IMG/VR virus record: IMGVR_UViG_3300048135_000736
Span: 1 to 32,333 of that record
Strand: one strand, 5' to 3'
DNA length: 32,333 bases
Origin: a virus
Shown: positions 24,101 to 27,734 of the stretch, one piece after another
How the letters are laid out: every line of letters starts with the position of its first letter
Numbering within the stretch: position 1 is the first letter of the stretch
The notes under the pieces: generated by a model
The model's input: the letters and a program-made list of their open reading frames with translations, nothing else
Told to the model about the DNA's origin: nothing
Database searches by the model: none
Translations under genes and position numbers: made by a program

Positions 24101-24513
24101 TCCAGGTACTCACCTGGTTTGATGTAAGAAGGTAGTTTTGTTGTGCCTGACACTCCTCTGAGTATTCCTGAGAGAACATTTCCTTCTCTAATCCTGTAAA
24201 GAATTACTTCCTCATCAATAAGAATAACACCATCATTTTCAGGAAATCCTCTGCCATCATCAACAGTGATTTCATCCTGTTCAATTGTAATGTTCTCAGA
24301 TAAGATTGTGTGAGTGATAATCTCACTTTGATAAACATCAAAGTCACGATACCTATCCAGATTTTGTAACAAGTCGTTACTGAATCCAATTCGCTCTTCT
24401 GCTTCAAATGCAGTTGACATAAAGTCAACAAAGGTTGTGTAGTTCTCTACAATAAAGTCAGGTAGGAAAGTTGTTACCTGATCTGAACCCTTAACTCTCT
24501 TTTCGTTTATCAT
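18193..24513 (-). CDS. 7: Baseplate wedge gp7-like giant protein with YHYH-type motif
   Basis: A 2106-residue protein, about twice T4 gp7 (1032). It is called gp7-like mainly by position directly after gp6 and by a start (TFLPDFIVENYTTFVDFMST, LLQNLDRYRDFDVYQ) and end (SFYYQHFSYVISSQLESETY, LVHPAGFAMF) of the marine T4-like gp7 type. Around residue 765-800 lies LGWAYDGNPIYGPYGY, the hallmark of YHYH domains. Three W-rich modules (EGDLWWSTKNGRLYVYY; IGDLWWSPHTGGLYVW; VGDLWWSNANGKMYILF) sit near residues 1205, 1290 and 1400. Several GxGY-type modules (DPGQNYIDVP, DPGYGYESDF, SGGIGYTEAP, VPGIGYTEPV) are scattered through it. The ATG overlaps the gp6 stop by one base, with GGAGG seven bases upstream inside gp6, so the two are translated together. 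The exact match to T4 gp7 is inference. Confidence 0.8.
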   Translation of the reverse strand: MINEKRVKGSDQVTTFLPDFIVENYTTFVDFMSTAFEAEERIGFSNDLLQNLDRYRDFDVYQSEIITHTILSENITIEQDEITVDDGRGFPENDGVILIDEEVILYRIREGNVLSGILRGVSGTTKLPSYIKPGEYLDTVARPHQLGSRVENISSLTLSAFVSTIHDTYTSGLVSENINSQINRSTLLQKVKDFFQSKGTKLGIQSLFKILFADLDVDVNYPGDMMIKPSESTFDERLVIRTVPVSPLLCSVDVLERYELPDKLIGQNMRLFSYNDDEVYARVSCDYVTSYPIESEVQYDITVDKEKVVGDVFVNPSSLLMREVRIPGTTTFAQRDVDTITVQSTAGFPETGIIIINDEAIRYGSKSFNQFLNCKRGHIGVPGDHAIGEIVYGPYYLESEREINGLTYKTRSFPTGLVEGVNVVDGGLYYKKTDNIHLDKPGKDDPREVALASIKENYNYDLVKQYDSINMQYVGNYAAGVSGVFFDDDYIYTTSTNLPYYSIGKFSDDNSVGATISARNIVHVIPRRHKINTVQYKLKKGNTRVGFFVDGVSALSCNSPTIITQGKITRFEVVNGGEEYINPTVLISPNNSSAVAVVDKGKIVSVEVTTVGNYEFTPSVEISSGDGAVIEPSFDPFGRVTQFRVVDPGQNYIDVPIIQVVDKSGRGRGGQFKANVSGGQITSVDVITQGIDYIASSTYVNVISQGFGAAIAAHVEYYTFDRVKEIENNPVWFFDKGNGFLYENPNGDRNVFGYSVSPTELRRSLGDDGTKHSPILGWAYDGNPIYGPYGYKNERDDREGILRQRSGYILNVDRKQSIPDNSVDILPGLNPPTTIEYPMGTFVNDYSFKGRVTVASAPLTDENDEGIQTESYMQMEAEFIQDVASFGFNESADVFSGVLDSFNGKLCNTPDFPKELYPEGVYCYFLTVDSFDNPVFPYIIGESFNSVPMSQRIVVDTTTALNFGDVTYEPDSFDDTQLQLDFGKVERYRHPYIGTSANELILEIATIGAGSVSDFHYTSVSQSRDKMVGDITYISKVMTEGSGAVGIVSEMIGERVIKNENNWIQSRIVSHHQILDLKNNSYDTFVFVEGSLLRTTSFAIARVRSYDPFNKILDVQTITPNLIQEGDVFLDNRNVIVTAQNRSFEIANVNVSQFTLTTERSGEDIDSEETSLVAITPEEYTGVIPNNMSVTGYFAPVQRPNGDTLKEGDLWWSTKNGRLYVYYTQAEPLKDMWICTQPLGMIPLNGSSDEGWGNDEPSGSAIYHEATNNTLTISERAPGSRPDSTPLVIGDLWWSPHTGGLYVWHSDEITYYVNEFNKTGEIPDGPPPVGYSATREWVCTDPVANIPFGDDASDVFFPYPDNLRGVTFDTDNEIFVEDISVIISERAPTVGLDGNPPEVGDLWWSNANGKMYILFNSPSGDVWVVTNPSSSMAFAPYTISGLPWEGGSIIIPPGGDLPGVPGGLDVVPELEDQEVLWVLDYEMFVPGDQYEIVLQADPDYNEIVTLEAKLLYDKENSEIDTLRGVDVSALTRGTLNVSEIPDFTIIKNINNSLYEVWTDVDHQMNKGDLVTINGSSIDAVNKEHAIAKVGTVRLAKMRSRINASGEVSDAFIDDPGYGYESDFYVETIGDGIGAQIIAHVETFEMGGVGEVIGFTINSGGIGYTEAPILVCTPAAGQYARNYFALIVDGLREVERNSITYTTKSPTVKSDVHKIAVKTNGDGYLELPPVDGLIKKEIDRASGMPQLNGTSISSVRMMHTGNRYHNPIPIFSDLAGNGSGARGKCVLLDDLIVDVEVIVPGIGYTEPVVEFVEMDDIVYADSEDIGRITSINVLNPGRNIPSDLSIRPEIEVETRLLIEHDSRFGFLDEGDIIYQGTGVIRQAEATVVEYDALNHTLLIDDITGIFMKDQIIKTVNGKQAMVVNVKQAKTNIDVSGAALQSGRFVTEKSFVSSFYSVLQDSFYYQHFSYVISSQLESETYVNFVNSLVHPAGFAMFTDIEIIESVQTLIDVEPLDLDGDIQIIDIAGTDGAGDEQIIGSDMIIPIRTVIAWDPGSSNYDNSAPSPINPPAPDEIDYEDQLLLDDGASNPLIITHIESRNEFKLRINN
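18198..18205 (-). promoter_or_regulatory. Late promoter AATAAATA inside gp7-like 3' end
   Basis: Minus-strand AGAATAAATAACTAA is read as the last codons and TAA stop of the gp7-like gene and also matches the late consensus. It lies 14 bases before the ATG of the LamG gene. Confidence 0.7.
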
Positions 24514-26402
24514 CAGTTACCTCCATCAACGATTGCGTTGATTTCAGATGTAGCAACATCAAACTCCATGTAAACAGATCCTCTTGATTCAATCATTTGT
24601 CCATTGTTAAATGGAATGGTTCTAATCATTATCAAGTCATCCTTAAGAACTGTTGACATAATTCTTATTGGACTGTCAATACCAAATAAGAGTTCACCAT
24701 TGGAAAAATTAAGTGTTCCAATCTCTTCTTCAACTGTTATCTTAATGTTCCTTTCATCCAAGTAGAATAATCTGACTGGAGAAATGAGTTCTGGACTGTC
24801 GTCCTGACAACTTGGTGGTATGTTTTCCATATAATGAACCTCCTCAGATCCATCAATGTAGAAACCAGTTGTTGACAGGACTGAATTGTGATAATCAACA
24901 TCTAAAGCGTTCTCAAAACACACTTCATAAGAAGCAAGAGTGTTAGGAACAATTGTTAGATTCTTCCTCATCCTAATTGCTGACACGTTCCTTGTAATTG
25001 CATCATTTGAGTCATCAATCAATCCAACAATCTTAGAATATCTTACAATTCCACCAAATCTAGCAACACCAGGTGAATCTGCGTACTTTTGAAGTCCAAC
25101 TCTTGCTCCACCAATGATTCCAGCAGCATCTAAGTTGGTTTGTCTGTCATCATAGAAGATTAGTGAGTCAACTTCCAAGTAAAGTACCTCAGGATCAATG
25201 AATTTGATGTCAATAGATGCAACTCTGTAAGATTCAATTGACTGTCTGATGAATTGTTTAGTTGTTGTGTTCAGTGTGATACCAGATTTGGGTTTGATGG
25301 CAACATACACTCTTCCAAACTCAGGAATTGGTAGTGTTTCACCACCATAAACGTAAATATCATCAACCGCAGGATAAACAGAGCGAATAACTGCTTCATA
25401 ATCATCAGTTGTGACGCATCTGTTCTGTGCAGCGTAGTTTTTAGGTGCCCTAAACTTGATATCTCTGGTTTCTTCTGTTCCTGAACCTCCAGAAGACATT
25501 GAAACTTGAGTTACAGTGGGTTGGACATTCAGGAAGTTACCAAAAGAGTCCTCAACCCTGCCTGTAAATGTAAAGTTGTTGGTTCCTTGTATACCATTTG
25601 CCTCTTCACCTGTTGAGATAAGGTATTCAACAAAGATTTTAGAACCATTTTGTAATTTTTTGCCAAAAACACCATCACCAAAGGTGATTTCATACTGATT
25701 ATCTTCAACTTCTTCCACCCAATAGACTCTAGAGTTCTGATTTAGAGTCGTAAGATTGATTGCCTGAGAATAAAAGGTGTTTAACTCAATATTTGGATCT
25801 TCTTGTACCTCAATTCTAATGATTGAAGTGTCAATCTTCTCATTTTCAAGGATAAATCTCTGTGCGTAATCTGATTCATCATTTACAAACGTCTGTCTAA
25901 TCCTTAATCCTTCATAAATGATAGAATTCAGGAAGACTGATCTTCCATCAGATGCAATTGATGAGGTAAAAGTGTCAACTGTGTTGAATGTATAAGTCTT
26001 ATCTTCTGAATACACCTGGAAAACAGGTCCAGGAGCAATCTGGAGTGATGCAGGAAGTCCACCTGGATACACTTCTTCCAAATCTAATCCTGAAGCAAGA
26101 TCAAATTCAAATGTAATTTCTGATCTAGAGCTTCTTGATGATCTTGGAGTATAACCAATCTGCCTTGCACTGGACACCACATTGTTTCTAATTGATGCAG
26201 TGGTGAGAAAGCTCTCATTTGCAATCATATTAGCTGAATATGCATTCAACTGAGACTGATAAGCGATCAGGTTCAGTATAACACTGAGGTTACTGGCTTC
26301 AAAATCAAAGTCAGTAAACTTATCTGTACTCTTTAGATAAGAGATGAGGTTCTTTTTGATCTGATCGAAATCAGTCTCAGTAAGTTGTATGGGACCTGCC
26401 AC
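24513..26402 (-). CDS. 6: Baseplate wedge subunit gp6
   Basis: A 629-residue protein, close to T4 gp6 (660). The N-terminus (LTETDFDQIKKNLISYLKST, FTDFDFEASNLSVILNLIAY, NAYSANMIANESFLTTASIR) and the core (YEITFGDGVFGKKLQNGSKI, APKNYAAQNRCVTTDDYEAV) are typical of the gp6 / baseplate J-like family. In T4, gp6 forms the continuous ring of the baseplate that links wedges around the hub and contacts gp25 and gp53. The start is GTG, with AGAG just upstream and a late promoter 22 bases before it. The last codons carry the ribosome site of the gp7-like gene, with a one-base overlap (TGATG). Confidence 0.93.
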   Translation of the reverse strand: MAGPIQLTETDFDQIKKNLISYLKSTDKFTDFDFEASNLSVILNLIAYQSQLNAYSANMIANESFLTTASIRNNVVSSARQIGYTPRSSRSSRSEITFEFDLASGLDLEEVYPGGLPASLQIAPGPVFQVYSEDKTYTFNTVDTFTSSIASDGRSVFLNSIIYEGLRIRQTFVNDESDYAQRFILENEKIDTSIIRIEVQEDPNIELNTFYSQAINLTTLNQNSRVYWVEEVEDNQYEITFGDGVFGKKLQNGSKIFVEYLISTGEEANGIQGTNNFTFTGRVEDSFGNFLNVQPTVTQVSMSSGGSGTEETRDIKFRAPKNYAAQNRCVTTDDYEAVIRSVYPAVDDIYVYGGETLPIPEFGRVYVAIKPKSGITLNTTTKQFIRQSIESYRVASIDIKFIDPEVLYLEVDSLIFYDDRQTNLDAAGIIGGARVGLQKYADSPGVARFGGIVRYSKIVGLIDDSNDAITRNVSAIRMRKNLTIVPNTLASYEVCFENALDVDYHNSVLSTTGFYIDGSEEVHYMENIPPSCQDDSPELISPVRLFYLDERNIKITVEEEIGTLNFSNGELLFGIDSPIRIMSTVLKDDLIMIRTIPFNNGQMIESRGSVYMEFDVATSEINAIVDGGN

Positions 26403-26423: not shown

Positions 26424-26431
26424 TATTTATG
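26424..26431 (-). promoter_or_regulatory. Late promoter CATAAATA
   Basis: Minus-strand CCATAAATAACTG; the TAA stop of gp25 is embedded in it. It lies 22 bases before the GTG of gp6. Confidence 0.74.
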
Positions 26432-26894
26432 GGGTGGATGTGGGAGTTAATATGTACTCTGTGTTGAAGATTTCAAGGTATCCAATAATCTTATACTTAA
26501 CACTCACTCTAACGAAGTTTTCATAAAACACCTTTGCCTTCCTTGTTGATTTCTTCACATTTCTTCCCATGGTGGTTGTATCTTCTGTCGTGTCAACCTG
26601 GACGTCTATAACCTCAACTCTTGGTTCATTATAAGCAATTGATCTTTCAACCTCTTTCTTAATGTCGTCCAATGCAAATGAATCGTTAAGTTCAAACAAA
26701 GACTCATTCACAACAGAACCAAAATCAGGAGTAAATGCAACTGACTTTGTAGAAATCATGATACAGTTCTTCAAAGCATTCTGAATCGCTCTCTCATTCT
26801 TCAGTAGGGTGATGTCTTTAGTGACAGGATTTGCTTGAAAAGACAACGAGATGTCTGTAAAGTCCCTAATTCTTCTTGTTAACTTAACAGGCAT
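26427..26894 (-). CDS. 25: Baseplate wedge subunit gp25
   Basis: A 155-residue protein (T4 gp25 is 132). The gpW/gp25 fold signature is clear: NPVTKDITLLKNERAIQNAL, AFTPDFGSVVNESLFELND and DDIKKEVERSIAYNEPRVEV. A C-terminal beta strand region follows (FVRVSVKYKIIGYLEIFNTE). In T4, gp25 belongs to the wedge core with gp6 and gp53 and resembles the sheath initiator of contractile systems. The ATG follows directly after GGAGG and seven T; the same bases form the 3' arm and tail of a terminator-like hairpin. A late-promoter-like CTAAATA overlaps the other arm. The stop is embedded in the gp6 late promoter. Confidence 0.93.
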   Translation of the reverse strand: MPVKLTRRIRDFTDISLSFQANPVTKDITLLKNERAIQNALKNCIMISTKSVAFTPDFGSVVNESLFELNDSFALDDIKKEVERSIAYNEPRVEVIDVQVDTTEDTTTMGRNVKKSTRKAKVFYENFVRVSVKYKIIGYLEIFNTEYILTPTSTP

Positions 26895-26918
26895 AAAAAA
26901 ACCTCCATTTCAGGAGGT
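26895..26918 (-). terminator. Terminator-like hairpin overlapping the gp25 ribosome site
   Basis: On the minus strand, ACCTCC (26918-26913) and GGAGGT (26906-26901) pair across the six-base loop TGAAAT, followed by seven T up to the gp25 ATG. This is an intrinsic terminator for the small-gene run upstream. GGAGG is also the gp25 Shine-Dalgarno sequence, so in read-through RNA the hairpin would hide it. Confidence 0.8.
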
Positions 26919-26925
26919 ATTTAGA
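26918..26925 (-). promoter_or_regulatory. Late promoter-like TCTAAATA at gp25 hairpin
   Basis: Minus-strand TCTAAATA differs from the ATAAATA core by one base (C for the first A). Its last base is the first base of the hairpin 5' arm. A start 6-7 bases downstream would fall in the loop near 26911, giving RNA with a free GGAGG. Confidence 0.5.
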
Positions 26926-26926
26926 T

Positions 26927-27067
26927 TCACTTTTTATTGTTTTCTTCCCATCTCTTCCTCATTTCTTGAGTGTAATGAGGTGGCTGAGGGGGTTTGGGAG
27001 TTGTATCAAGGTTTACGTCCTCTTCAAAGGTCGTTTCCTGAAGAAATGTGCGCTTTTGTTGAGTCAT
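26927..27067 (-). CDS. Small hypothetical protein, 46 residues
   Basis: ATG 27067 to TGA 26927. The protein starts MTQQKRTFLQETTFEED, has a proline-rich middle (TPKPPQPPHY) and ends in a charged helix (TQEMRKRWEENNKK). The ATG overlaps the TGA of the previous gene (ATGA), and a clear ribosome site (AAGGA) lies seven bases upstream inside that gene. Start, ribosome site and overlap together make it a convincing gene despite its size. The hairpin terminator begins nine bases after its stop, so it is the last gene of the small run. I do not recognise a family. Confidence 0.75.
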   Translation of the reverse strand: MTQQKRTFLQETTFEEDVNLDTTPKPPQPPHYTQEMRKRWEENNKK

Positions 27068-27210
27068 CGTCTTCCTTGTCCTCTGTAAGGTTTGCGTCGA
27101 GGTCTACGACCTCGTTGACAGAACTTAGTGTTCTTTGATAATCCTTGGTAAGTCTTCTTGTTAGTAGGAATAATTACCGCTTCACCAGATTTAGTAAAAA
27201 TTCGTGCCAT
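27064..27210 (-). CDS. Small basic protein, 48 residues
   Basis: ATG 27210 to TGA 27064. It begins MARIFTKSGEAVIIPTNKK and ends in a strongly basic tail (RGRRPRRKPYRGQGRR) that could bind nucleic acid or an acidic partner; that is inference from charge alone. An AAGGA ribosome site lies 11 bases before the ATG, inside the preceding gene, and the start overlaps that gene's TAA by one base (TAATG). It overlaps the following 46-residue gene by ATGA. Family unknown; short proteins ending in a YRGQGR-like tail recall cyanophage ORFs, from memory only. Confidence 0.75.
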   Translation of the reverse strand: MARIFTKSGEAVIIPTNKKTYQGLSKNTKFCQRGRRPRRKPYRGQGRR

Positions 27211-27359
27211 TACTTAATTTTCCTTTCAATCTCTTGAACTTTCTTTTCAAGAGCAACCAGCCTTTCAGCAATCATCATCACTCTTTCCACTACAGGATCT
27301 TTACCTGCTTTGGGGGTTCTGGCAACAACACCAGACTGTTCACGATTTGTGTAACTCAT
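27210..27359 (-). CDS. Small coiled-coil protein, 49 residues
   Basis: ATG 27359 to TAA 27210. It starts MSYTNREQSGVVARTPKAGK, then a long amphipathic helix (DPVVERVMMIAERLVALEKK, VQEIERKIK) with leucine, valine and isoleucine at heptad spacing, a likely coiled coil. The ATG overlaps the TGA of the gene before it (ATGA), and the stop overlaps the next ATG (TAATG). It has no membrane segment or catalytic motif. Its coiled coil may pair with the similar helix of the gene just upstream; that is inference. Confidence 0.72.
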   Translation of the reverse strand: MSYTNREQSGVVARTPKAGKDPVVERVMMIAERLVALEKKVQEIERKIK

Positions 27360-27508
27360 TGCTCTAATTTGCTCAAACGATTCTGTAGGTTTTCAAGTTG
27401 AATAAGGATGTCGTCAAGAACATCCGTCATACATTCGTATTTATCTCTACTTTGAGGACGTCTGTACATAAGTTTGACGTCTGGCTCAAAGGGTTTATCA
27501 GTACTCAA
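27356..27508 (-). CDS. Small coiled-coil protein with uncertain start
   Basis: The frame runs from TTG 27508 to TGA 27356 (50 residues), overlapping the end of the 78-residue gene by 11 bases. TTG has GGAG six bases upstream. In-frame ATGs at 27469 (37 residues) and 27430 (24 residues) lack a comparable ribosome site. With the TTG start the protein reads STDKPFEPDVKLMYRRPQSR, then a leucine-heptad helix (DVLDDILIQLENLQNRLSKL). The ATGA overlap with the next gene supports the frame. No family is recognised. A late-promoter match (GATAAATA, 27438-27445) lies inside and may be chance. Confidence 0.6.
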   Translation of the reverse strand: MSTDKPFEPDVKLMYRRPQSRDKYECMTDVLDDILIQLENLQNRLSKLEQ

Positions 27509-27734
27509 GAGTCACTCCATAAAACTCACTAGGACGTGGCATCTTACCAGTCCACAGTGAAGGTAGAATTGCAGTTCGTGCAGCTTCTGGACCAAAACGA
27601 TTCCAGAGCTCATAAAAAGAATCACGAGCTGAGGGAGTACAAGGAAAGAAGCGAATCTTCTCAACATGGAGTAGATTCACCTCTGCCTTAGCCTCTTCAA
27701 CTGTGAGATTGTAGTGATTGACAAGCTCAGTCAT
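27498..27734 (-). CDS. Hypothetical protein, 78 residues
   Basis: It starts MTELVNHYNLTVEEAKAEVN, then HVEKIRFFPCTPSARDSFYE, LWNRFGPEAARTAILPSLWT and GKMPRPSEFYG. The Trp, Pro and Cys pattern suggests a compact folded domain, and the family looks conserved, but I cannot name it. A sigma70-like promoter (27756-27784) lies 22 bases upstream and no late promoter precedes it, so it seems to lead the small-gene run that ends at the hairpin before gp25. Only a weak ribosome site (AAGAA) is visible. Confidence 0.78.
   Translation of the reverse strand: MTELVNHYNLTVEEAKAEVNLLHVEKIRFFPCTPSARDSFYELWNRFGPEAARTAILPSLWTGKMPRPSEFYGVTLEY

Follow-up and report, generated by a model that had tools for sequence, protein, structure and literature searches.

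A probable late promoter of the T4 type within the base of a candidate intrinsic terminator upstream of gp25 in a T4-like phage contig

Overview

The element directly upstream of the baseplate wedge gene gp25 probably combines an intrinsic (Rho-independent) terminator with a late promoter of the T4 type, which is nested at the base of the hairpin. It was found in the window, the whole stretch of 32,333 bases analyzed here, which corresponds to the full IMG/VR record IMGVR_UViG_3300048135_000736. We infer promoter use of CTAAATA, the +1 position, termination by the hairpin and its timing as follows. Polymerase arriving from upstream genes would copy both hairpin arms, the hairpin would form, and the U run would end the RNA just before gp25. 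Polymerase recruited to CTAAATA would start about 6 nt farther on, in the loop, and the new RNA would be without the 5' arm. Such late RNA would be unable to form the terminator and would continue into gp25 and gp6. Within about 35 bases, gp25 would be cut off from upstream RNA and placed under its own late promoter. In this contig, the 3' arm is also the gp25 Shine-Dalgarno (SD) sequence, which would add a second layer: in any RNA that slips past the terminator, the SD would remain buried. Cyanobacterial hosts are generally not known to possess Rho; in a host of that kind, RNA would be ended mainly by intrinsic terminators.

Structure of the element upstream of gp25

The minus strand from 26929 to 26892 reads TGA AT CTAAATA CCTCC TGAAAT GGAGG TTTTTTT ATG, which agrees with an earlier sequence-only reading as to the stem ACCTCC/GGAGGT, the TGAAAT loop, the T run, the gp25 ATG and the place of CTAAATA. 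The features of the region are listed below.

26918..26924, minus strand: late-promoter-like box CTAAATA (26924-26918), with the stem beginning on its final A (26918)
26913..26918, minus strand: hairpin 5' arm ACCTCC, from sequence and folding
26907..26912, minus strand: hairpin loop TGAAAT, from sequence and folding
26901..26906, minus strand: hairpin 3' arm GGAGGT, containing the SD GGAGG (26906-26902), 7 nt before the ATG
26895..26900, minus strand: T run of six T (seven with T26901), candidate terminator U tract and SD-ATG spacer
26894-26892, minus strand: gp25 ATG, from sequence
26912, minus strand: predicted late start (+1), 6 nt past the last A of the box, with G26911 as the nearest purine, based on the spacing in PMC1524935
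26427..26894, minus strand: gp25 baseplate wedge gene, 155 aa (PHROG 261, E 7.7e-31; alignment)
24513..26402, minus strand: gp6 baseplate wedge gene, downstream of gp25 (PHROG 219), with its own TAAATA at 26424-26429
26927..27067, minus strand: 46-aa ORF immediately upstream of the element, with its TGA stop at 26929-26927

Only 2 bases separate the stop codon of the 46-aa ORF from CTAAATA. The overlap of the box with the first base of the 5' arm and the identity of the 3' arm with the gp25 SD had both been described previously and were found as described. The earlier count of seven T is correct when taken from GGAGG; because one of these, the first, still belongs to the stem, six T remain after GGAGGT.

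The hairpin has a 6-bp stem with four GC pairs, a 6-nt loop and T7, and its folding energy was about -9.6 kcal/mol (z -3.1). This GC-containing stem-loop followed by a U run has the form of an intrinsic terminator, in line with the earlier proposal that it may terminate transcription. When the whole window was shuffled with dinucleotide composition preserved, a 6-bp GC-rich stem with T6 arose in 8 of 1000 shuffles and one with an ATG behind it in 1 of 1000, and the full composite (stem, T6, ATG and TAAATA at the foot) arose in none (0/1000). The box has the [N]TAAATA form of T4-type late promoters and lies upstream of a presumptive late gene; in addition, the SD lies within the hairpin, as the SD or start codon does in the T4 hairpin switch.

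Predicted transcription start and RNA folding

Late boxes of T4 (TATAAATA) extend from -13 to -6, that of phage Aeh1 (CTAAATA) begins at -12, and T4 late transcription starts 6 nt after the box (PMC1524935). With this spacing, +1 in the window would be T26912, the first loop base, followed by G26911. Because the last A of the box is the first stem base, the predicted late RNA from 26912 lacks the whole 5' arm, as the sequence-only reading had proposed for RNA started at CTAAATA. A T at +1 counts against the nested-promoter reading.

The sequence-only reading had also proposed that read-through RNA folds and hides GGAGG. In predicted folding of the two leaders, the mean probability of GGAGG being unpaired was 0.00 in read-through RNA and 0.33-0.42 in RNA from 26912, consistent with the proposal. 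By the T4 spacing rule, a late start would thus remove the 5' arm and free the SD.

Genomic context

The contig's long ORFs with recognizable phage products are on the minus strand. The best isolate matches of gp25 and gp6 were from Synechococcus phages, at approximately 36-43% identity. A DNA-level similarity search with the window returned an 88-base gp25 stretch of S-T4 as the closest match and no other, and an Rfam search of the 25-29 kb region matched no family. Upstream of gp25, five small, nearly overlapping ORFs (78, 50, 49, 48 and 46 aa) form a chain on the minus strand (window 26927-27734); the corresponding position in relatives is occupied by a tail assembly chaperone and small ORFs.

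TAAATA was strongly biased in strand (19 on the minus and 2 on the plus strand of the window); CTAAATA, with 2 occurrences observed against 4.1 expected, was not enriched by itself. TAAATA was located just before minus-strand genes at 1453, 3128, 3721, 12846, 14320, 16741, 18198, 26424 (gp6), 26918 (gp25), 28545 and 29143. This frequency would come close to one late promoter per gene. Several genes upstream of gp25 on the same strand carry a TAAATA box, so that they are probably served by separate late promoters and the RNA reaching gp25 from them may itself be late. Among the minus-strand terminator-like sites in the 32-kb contig, only the gp25 hairpin combined a complete T run with a location at the border of a gene; others were inside coding sequence.

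Distribution and covariation among gp25 loci

A scan of IMG/VR with the single gp25 protein gave no match, and gp25 loci in IMG/VR were retrieved through a gp6 query and gp25 alignment. Together with isolates, 105 distinct gp25 upstream regions were compared and scored by an automatic test. TAAATA with a terminator was present in 22, TAAATA alone in 75 and neither in 8, so that TAAATA preceded gp25 in 97 of the 105. Carriers were those whose gp25 is most similar to that of the window: 17 of the 19 closest scored as carriers, and of the other two, L201 is without the hairpin and L204 has the element, mis-scored via a wrong start codon. Joint conservation of the 5' arm and the box, which the sequence-only reading had named as a check, was found mainly in the closest relatives; distant gp25 genes are without the arm, with TAAATA alone (75/105) or with neither (8/105), and homologs of this kind had been named in that reading as evidence against it.

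Stems preceding gp25 differed widely in sequence, as shown by these representatives.

Window: ACCTCC/GGAGGT
L016: ACTCC/GGAGT
L197: ACCAGA/TCTGGT
L213: AGACCC/GGGTCT
S-CREM2: AGAGGGGC/GCCCCTCT
S-H34: AGAGGCGG/CCGCCTCT
L207: AGGGGC/GCCCCT

In carriers, TAAATA always lay at the stem foot, and the stem was always followed by T5-T7 and then the start codon. In 14 distinct aligned stems, 100% of cells were paired, a value that is partly built in because these stems were chosen for carrying the hairpin; four of the five pairs changed on both sides. Covariation was 1.05, compared with 0.19 in shuffled stems (0 of 500 shuffles reached the observed value) and at most 0.35 with the partner slid. What counts as evidence is the diversity of pair types together with the clade distribution, of which the latter is free of this selection.

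In most gp25 carriers, the 3' arm is C/T-rich and without an SD, and the hairpin and T run remain. Hiding of the SD therefore cannot be the conserved function, whereas ending of transcription can.

In L027, L033, L042, L059 and similar loci, GAGGTATAAATAGTTATATG is present just before gp25. Here, by the T4 rule, late RNA would begin at the A of the ATG or at a base beside it, giving a leaderless gp25 mRNA. An SD-like GAGG lies upstream of this predicted start and could serve read-through RNA only.

Survey of terminators in related sequences

A uniform scan was performed on 2.03 Mb, comprising the window, the loci retrieved by gp6 and gp25, and six complete genomes (S-CREM2, S-B68, S-H34, S-CRM01, S-T4 and S-SM2). 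It detected 228 distinct terminators, of which 54 had the start codon of an ORF of at least 40 aa right behind the T run. TAAATA was found at the foot of 26 of these 54, compared with 4 of the 174 others (Fisher p = 2.5e-15, a value that is too small because the surveyed loci are related by descent). Permuted hexamers of the same composition occurred at the foot with a mean of 0.27. S-SM2 was the only one of the six genomes in which no TAAATA-foot element was found.

The register was fixed in most of the 26 elements. The last A was the first stem base in 19, and in 5 it lay inside a longer stem that takes in AATA; TAAATA was absent at most other distances from the stem in the 2.03-Mb scan. A start 6 nt after the last A would leave 0-5 stem pairs in the predicted late RNAs, and the predicted +1 was a purine in 25 of the 26. 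An SD was present in the predicted late leader of only two, the window and L016. Orthologs that retain the hairpin thus mostly did not keep a hidden SD, and the proposal that an SD-hiding switch is the main function of the element was not supported.

TATAAT-like boxes, resembling the -10 box of host sigma-70, were located at the foot of 6 of 28 terminators right before a start codon, versus 1 in a shifted window. Such sites were found in S-T4 (L176 minus strand 8855 and 15681), S-SM2 (L191 8110), S-CREM2 (L144 3271) and L214 (511). From their sequence, these may be an early-promoter version of the nested layout.

Occurrence upstream of other genes

The same layout preceded a RusA-like gene in S-CREM2, S-B68 and S-H34, and a lysozyme or endolysin gene was located downstream of the RusA-like element in S-CREM2 and S-H34. 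It also preceded a glutaredoxin gene in S-CRM01 and a hypothetical protein gene in S-T4. The pattern TAAATA-GAGG..CCTC-T6 had at least 120 matches in IMG/VR, with an ORF start directly behind in 101 of 106 distinct contexts among the matches listed. With the box permuted to ATAATA, an ORF start was directly behind in 8 of 40, a control that is conservative and not neutral because a preceding T makes TATAAT, the host -10 box.

A search for the window's CCTCC/GGAGG form yielded 75 stretches, and an ORF start, mostly of a RusA-like gene, was right behind in 45 of 52 distinct contexts. A purine at +1 was predicted in 43 of the 52 distinct contexts of CTAAATA/TAAATA-CCTCC-GGAGG. In the cultured phage S-PM2, this form separates nrdB from a RusA-like gene and is close to a lysin gene; in S-CREM2, too, the RusA-like copy comes after nrdB. 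In the S-PM2 genome (AJ630128, approximately 115,170-115,200; L500 and L516), the element reads TAAATACCTCC-ATAT-GGAGG-T6, and a putative lysin gene is encoded further on. Early or middle nrd RNA would plausibly continue into late lysis genes in S-PM2, and for this reason an early/late reading is better founded at the S-PM2 element than at gp25. Judging from the motifs, the terminator arm appears to double as the SD both at gp25 in the window and, in S-PM2 as in numerous marine contigs, before RusA-like genes. In S-CREM2, positions 134,700-134,736 contain TAAATA, a terminator and the ATG of a 10-codon ORF, with the annotated gene starting at 134,753; this is possibly an orphan element.

These occurrences suggest that the layout is reused at other gene borders in this phage group. 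The chances appear about even that marine T4-like phages generally mark gene borders with a cassette that ends incoming RNA and spares the newly started one. Its promoter would sit at the terminator foot, recognized late by gp55 (TAAATA) and possibly early by host sigma-70 (TATAAT), with a stem sequence that is free to change and a 3' arm that acts as the SD in some lineages.

Evaluation of alternative explanations

A T4-type translational switch, with the hairpin serving mainly to cover the gp25 SD in early read-through RNA and with translation coming from late RNA that lacks the 5' arm, has a minor but real chance of being correct. GGAGG is fully paired in predicted read-through RNA and 33-42% free in RNA from 26912, the same logic has been shown for T4 e, soc, I-TevI and segB and for Aeh1 mobE (PMC3014915; PMC2988022), and RusA-like genes, including that of S-PM2 behind nrdB, are repeatedly preceded by the CCTCC/GGAGG form whose 3' arm holds the SD. 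However, the predicted late leader contains an SD in only 2 of the 26 elements, and orthologous gp25 elements without an SD retain the hairpin and T run. Further, SD hiding needs no T run, and the genes upstream of gp25 look late. It is improbable that the element is an ordinary terminator of the upstream operon beside an independent late promoter, the overlap reflecting compactness and reuse of GGAGG as an SD. Marine T4-like genomes are indeed compact, and it was common for an intrinsic terminator to have no start codon behind it (174 in the survey); yet TAAATA was at the foot of only 4 of those 174, and the fixed register (19/26) is unexpected from loose packing.

The hairpin is very unlikely to be a 5' stem-loop that protects the late mRNA from decay, with a start before the stem. 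Hairpins adjacent to promoters are common stabilizers, but a start before the stem would place the terminator at +20 of the message. In addition, T4 late transcription starts 6 nt after the box (PMC1524935), i.e., inside the stem. Least probable of all is an enhancer hairpin like that of T4 gene 25, by which a long gap between SD and AUG is shortened: it concerns the same gene, and T4 gene 25 has a hairpin between its SD and AUG, but the split site is absent from distant T4 relatives (PMC3014915), and the gp25 SD of the contig belongs to the 3' arm, only 7 nt ahead of the ATG. The split ribosome site itself, with the SD upstream of the hairpin and approximately 27 nt from the AUG, does not fit this position. 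As for the preferred reading of a late promoter nested in a terminator, a 6-bp stem is short for a strong terminator, and promoter-terminator adjacency could arise from intergenic compactness.

Implications

If the nested reading is correct, a minimal device of about 35 bp isolates a gene from its neighbors and retimes it in phages of ocean bacteria, the late polymerase being the only protein factor required, and this would explain the independent timing of genes packed a few bases apart. It would correct the simpler reading of such hairpins as mainly hiding ribosome sites. Operon tools that cut at terminators and promoters separately would misread these borders. S-PM2, a cultured isolate with the same element between nrdB and the RusA-like/lysin gene group, offers a place where the switch is testable.

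Comparison with known systems

A search of part of the literature on promoter/terminator overlap in phages found no description of such an arrangement. The element shares with intrinsic terminators of T4-like phages a GC-rich stem, a loop of 3-9 nt and a U tract, but differs from them in that a late box is merged with the stem foot and a start codon comes immediately after the U tract. The box is the same as in the late promoters of T4 (TATAAATA), S-PM2 (NATAAATA) and Aeh1 (CTAAATA), with C at -12 as in Aeh1. Unlike T4 late promoters, in which the initially melted segment is AT-rich (PMC2988020), that segment in the element is the GC-rich 5' arm of the terminator. T4 gene 25 likewise has a hairpin at the same gene, although in T4 it lies between the SD and AUG and aids translation, whereas the SD of the contig is in the 3' arm.

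The closest parallel is the late-promoter/ribosome-binding-site hairpin switch of T4 (e, soc, 49 and I-TevI; also segB, and mobE of Aeh1). In both, a late promoter at the 5' arm would yield late RNA without that arm, and the hairpin can sequester the SD of the next gene; the T4-like geometry proposed in the sequence-only reading was supported, the promoter/stem arrangement matching that of T4 gene e and I-TevI (PMC3014915; PMC2988022). In contrast to the T4 switch, the hairpin of the element is directly followed by a U run, as in a terminator, the SD is usually outside the hairpin in its relatives, where the stem sequence is free to change, and the element precedes gp25, RusA-like and many other genes. 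Since the hidden SD is not retained in orthologs, the element is best described as a terminator with a nested late promoter, despite the T4-switch anatomy in the contig.
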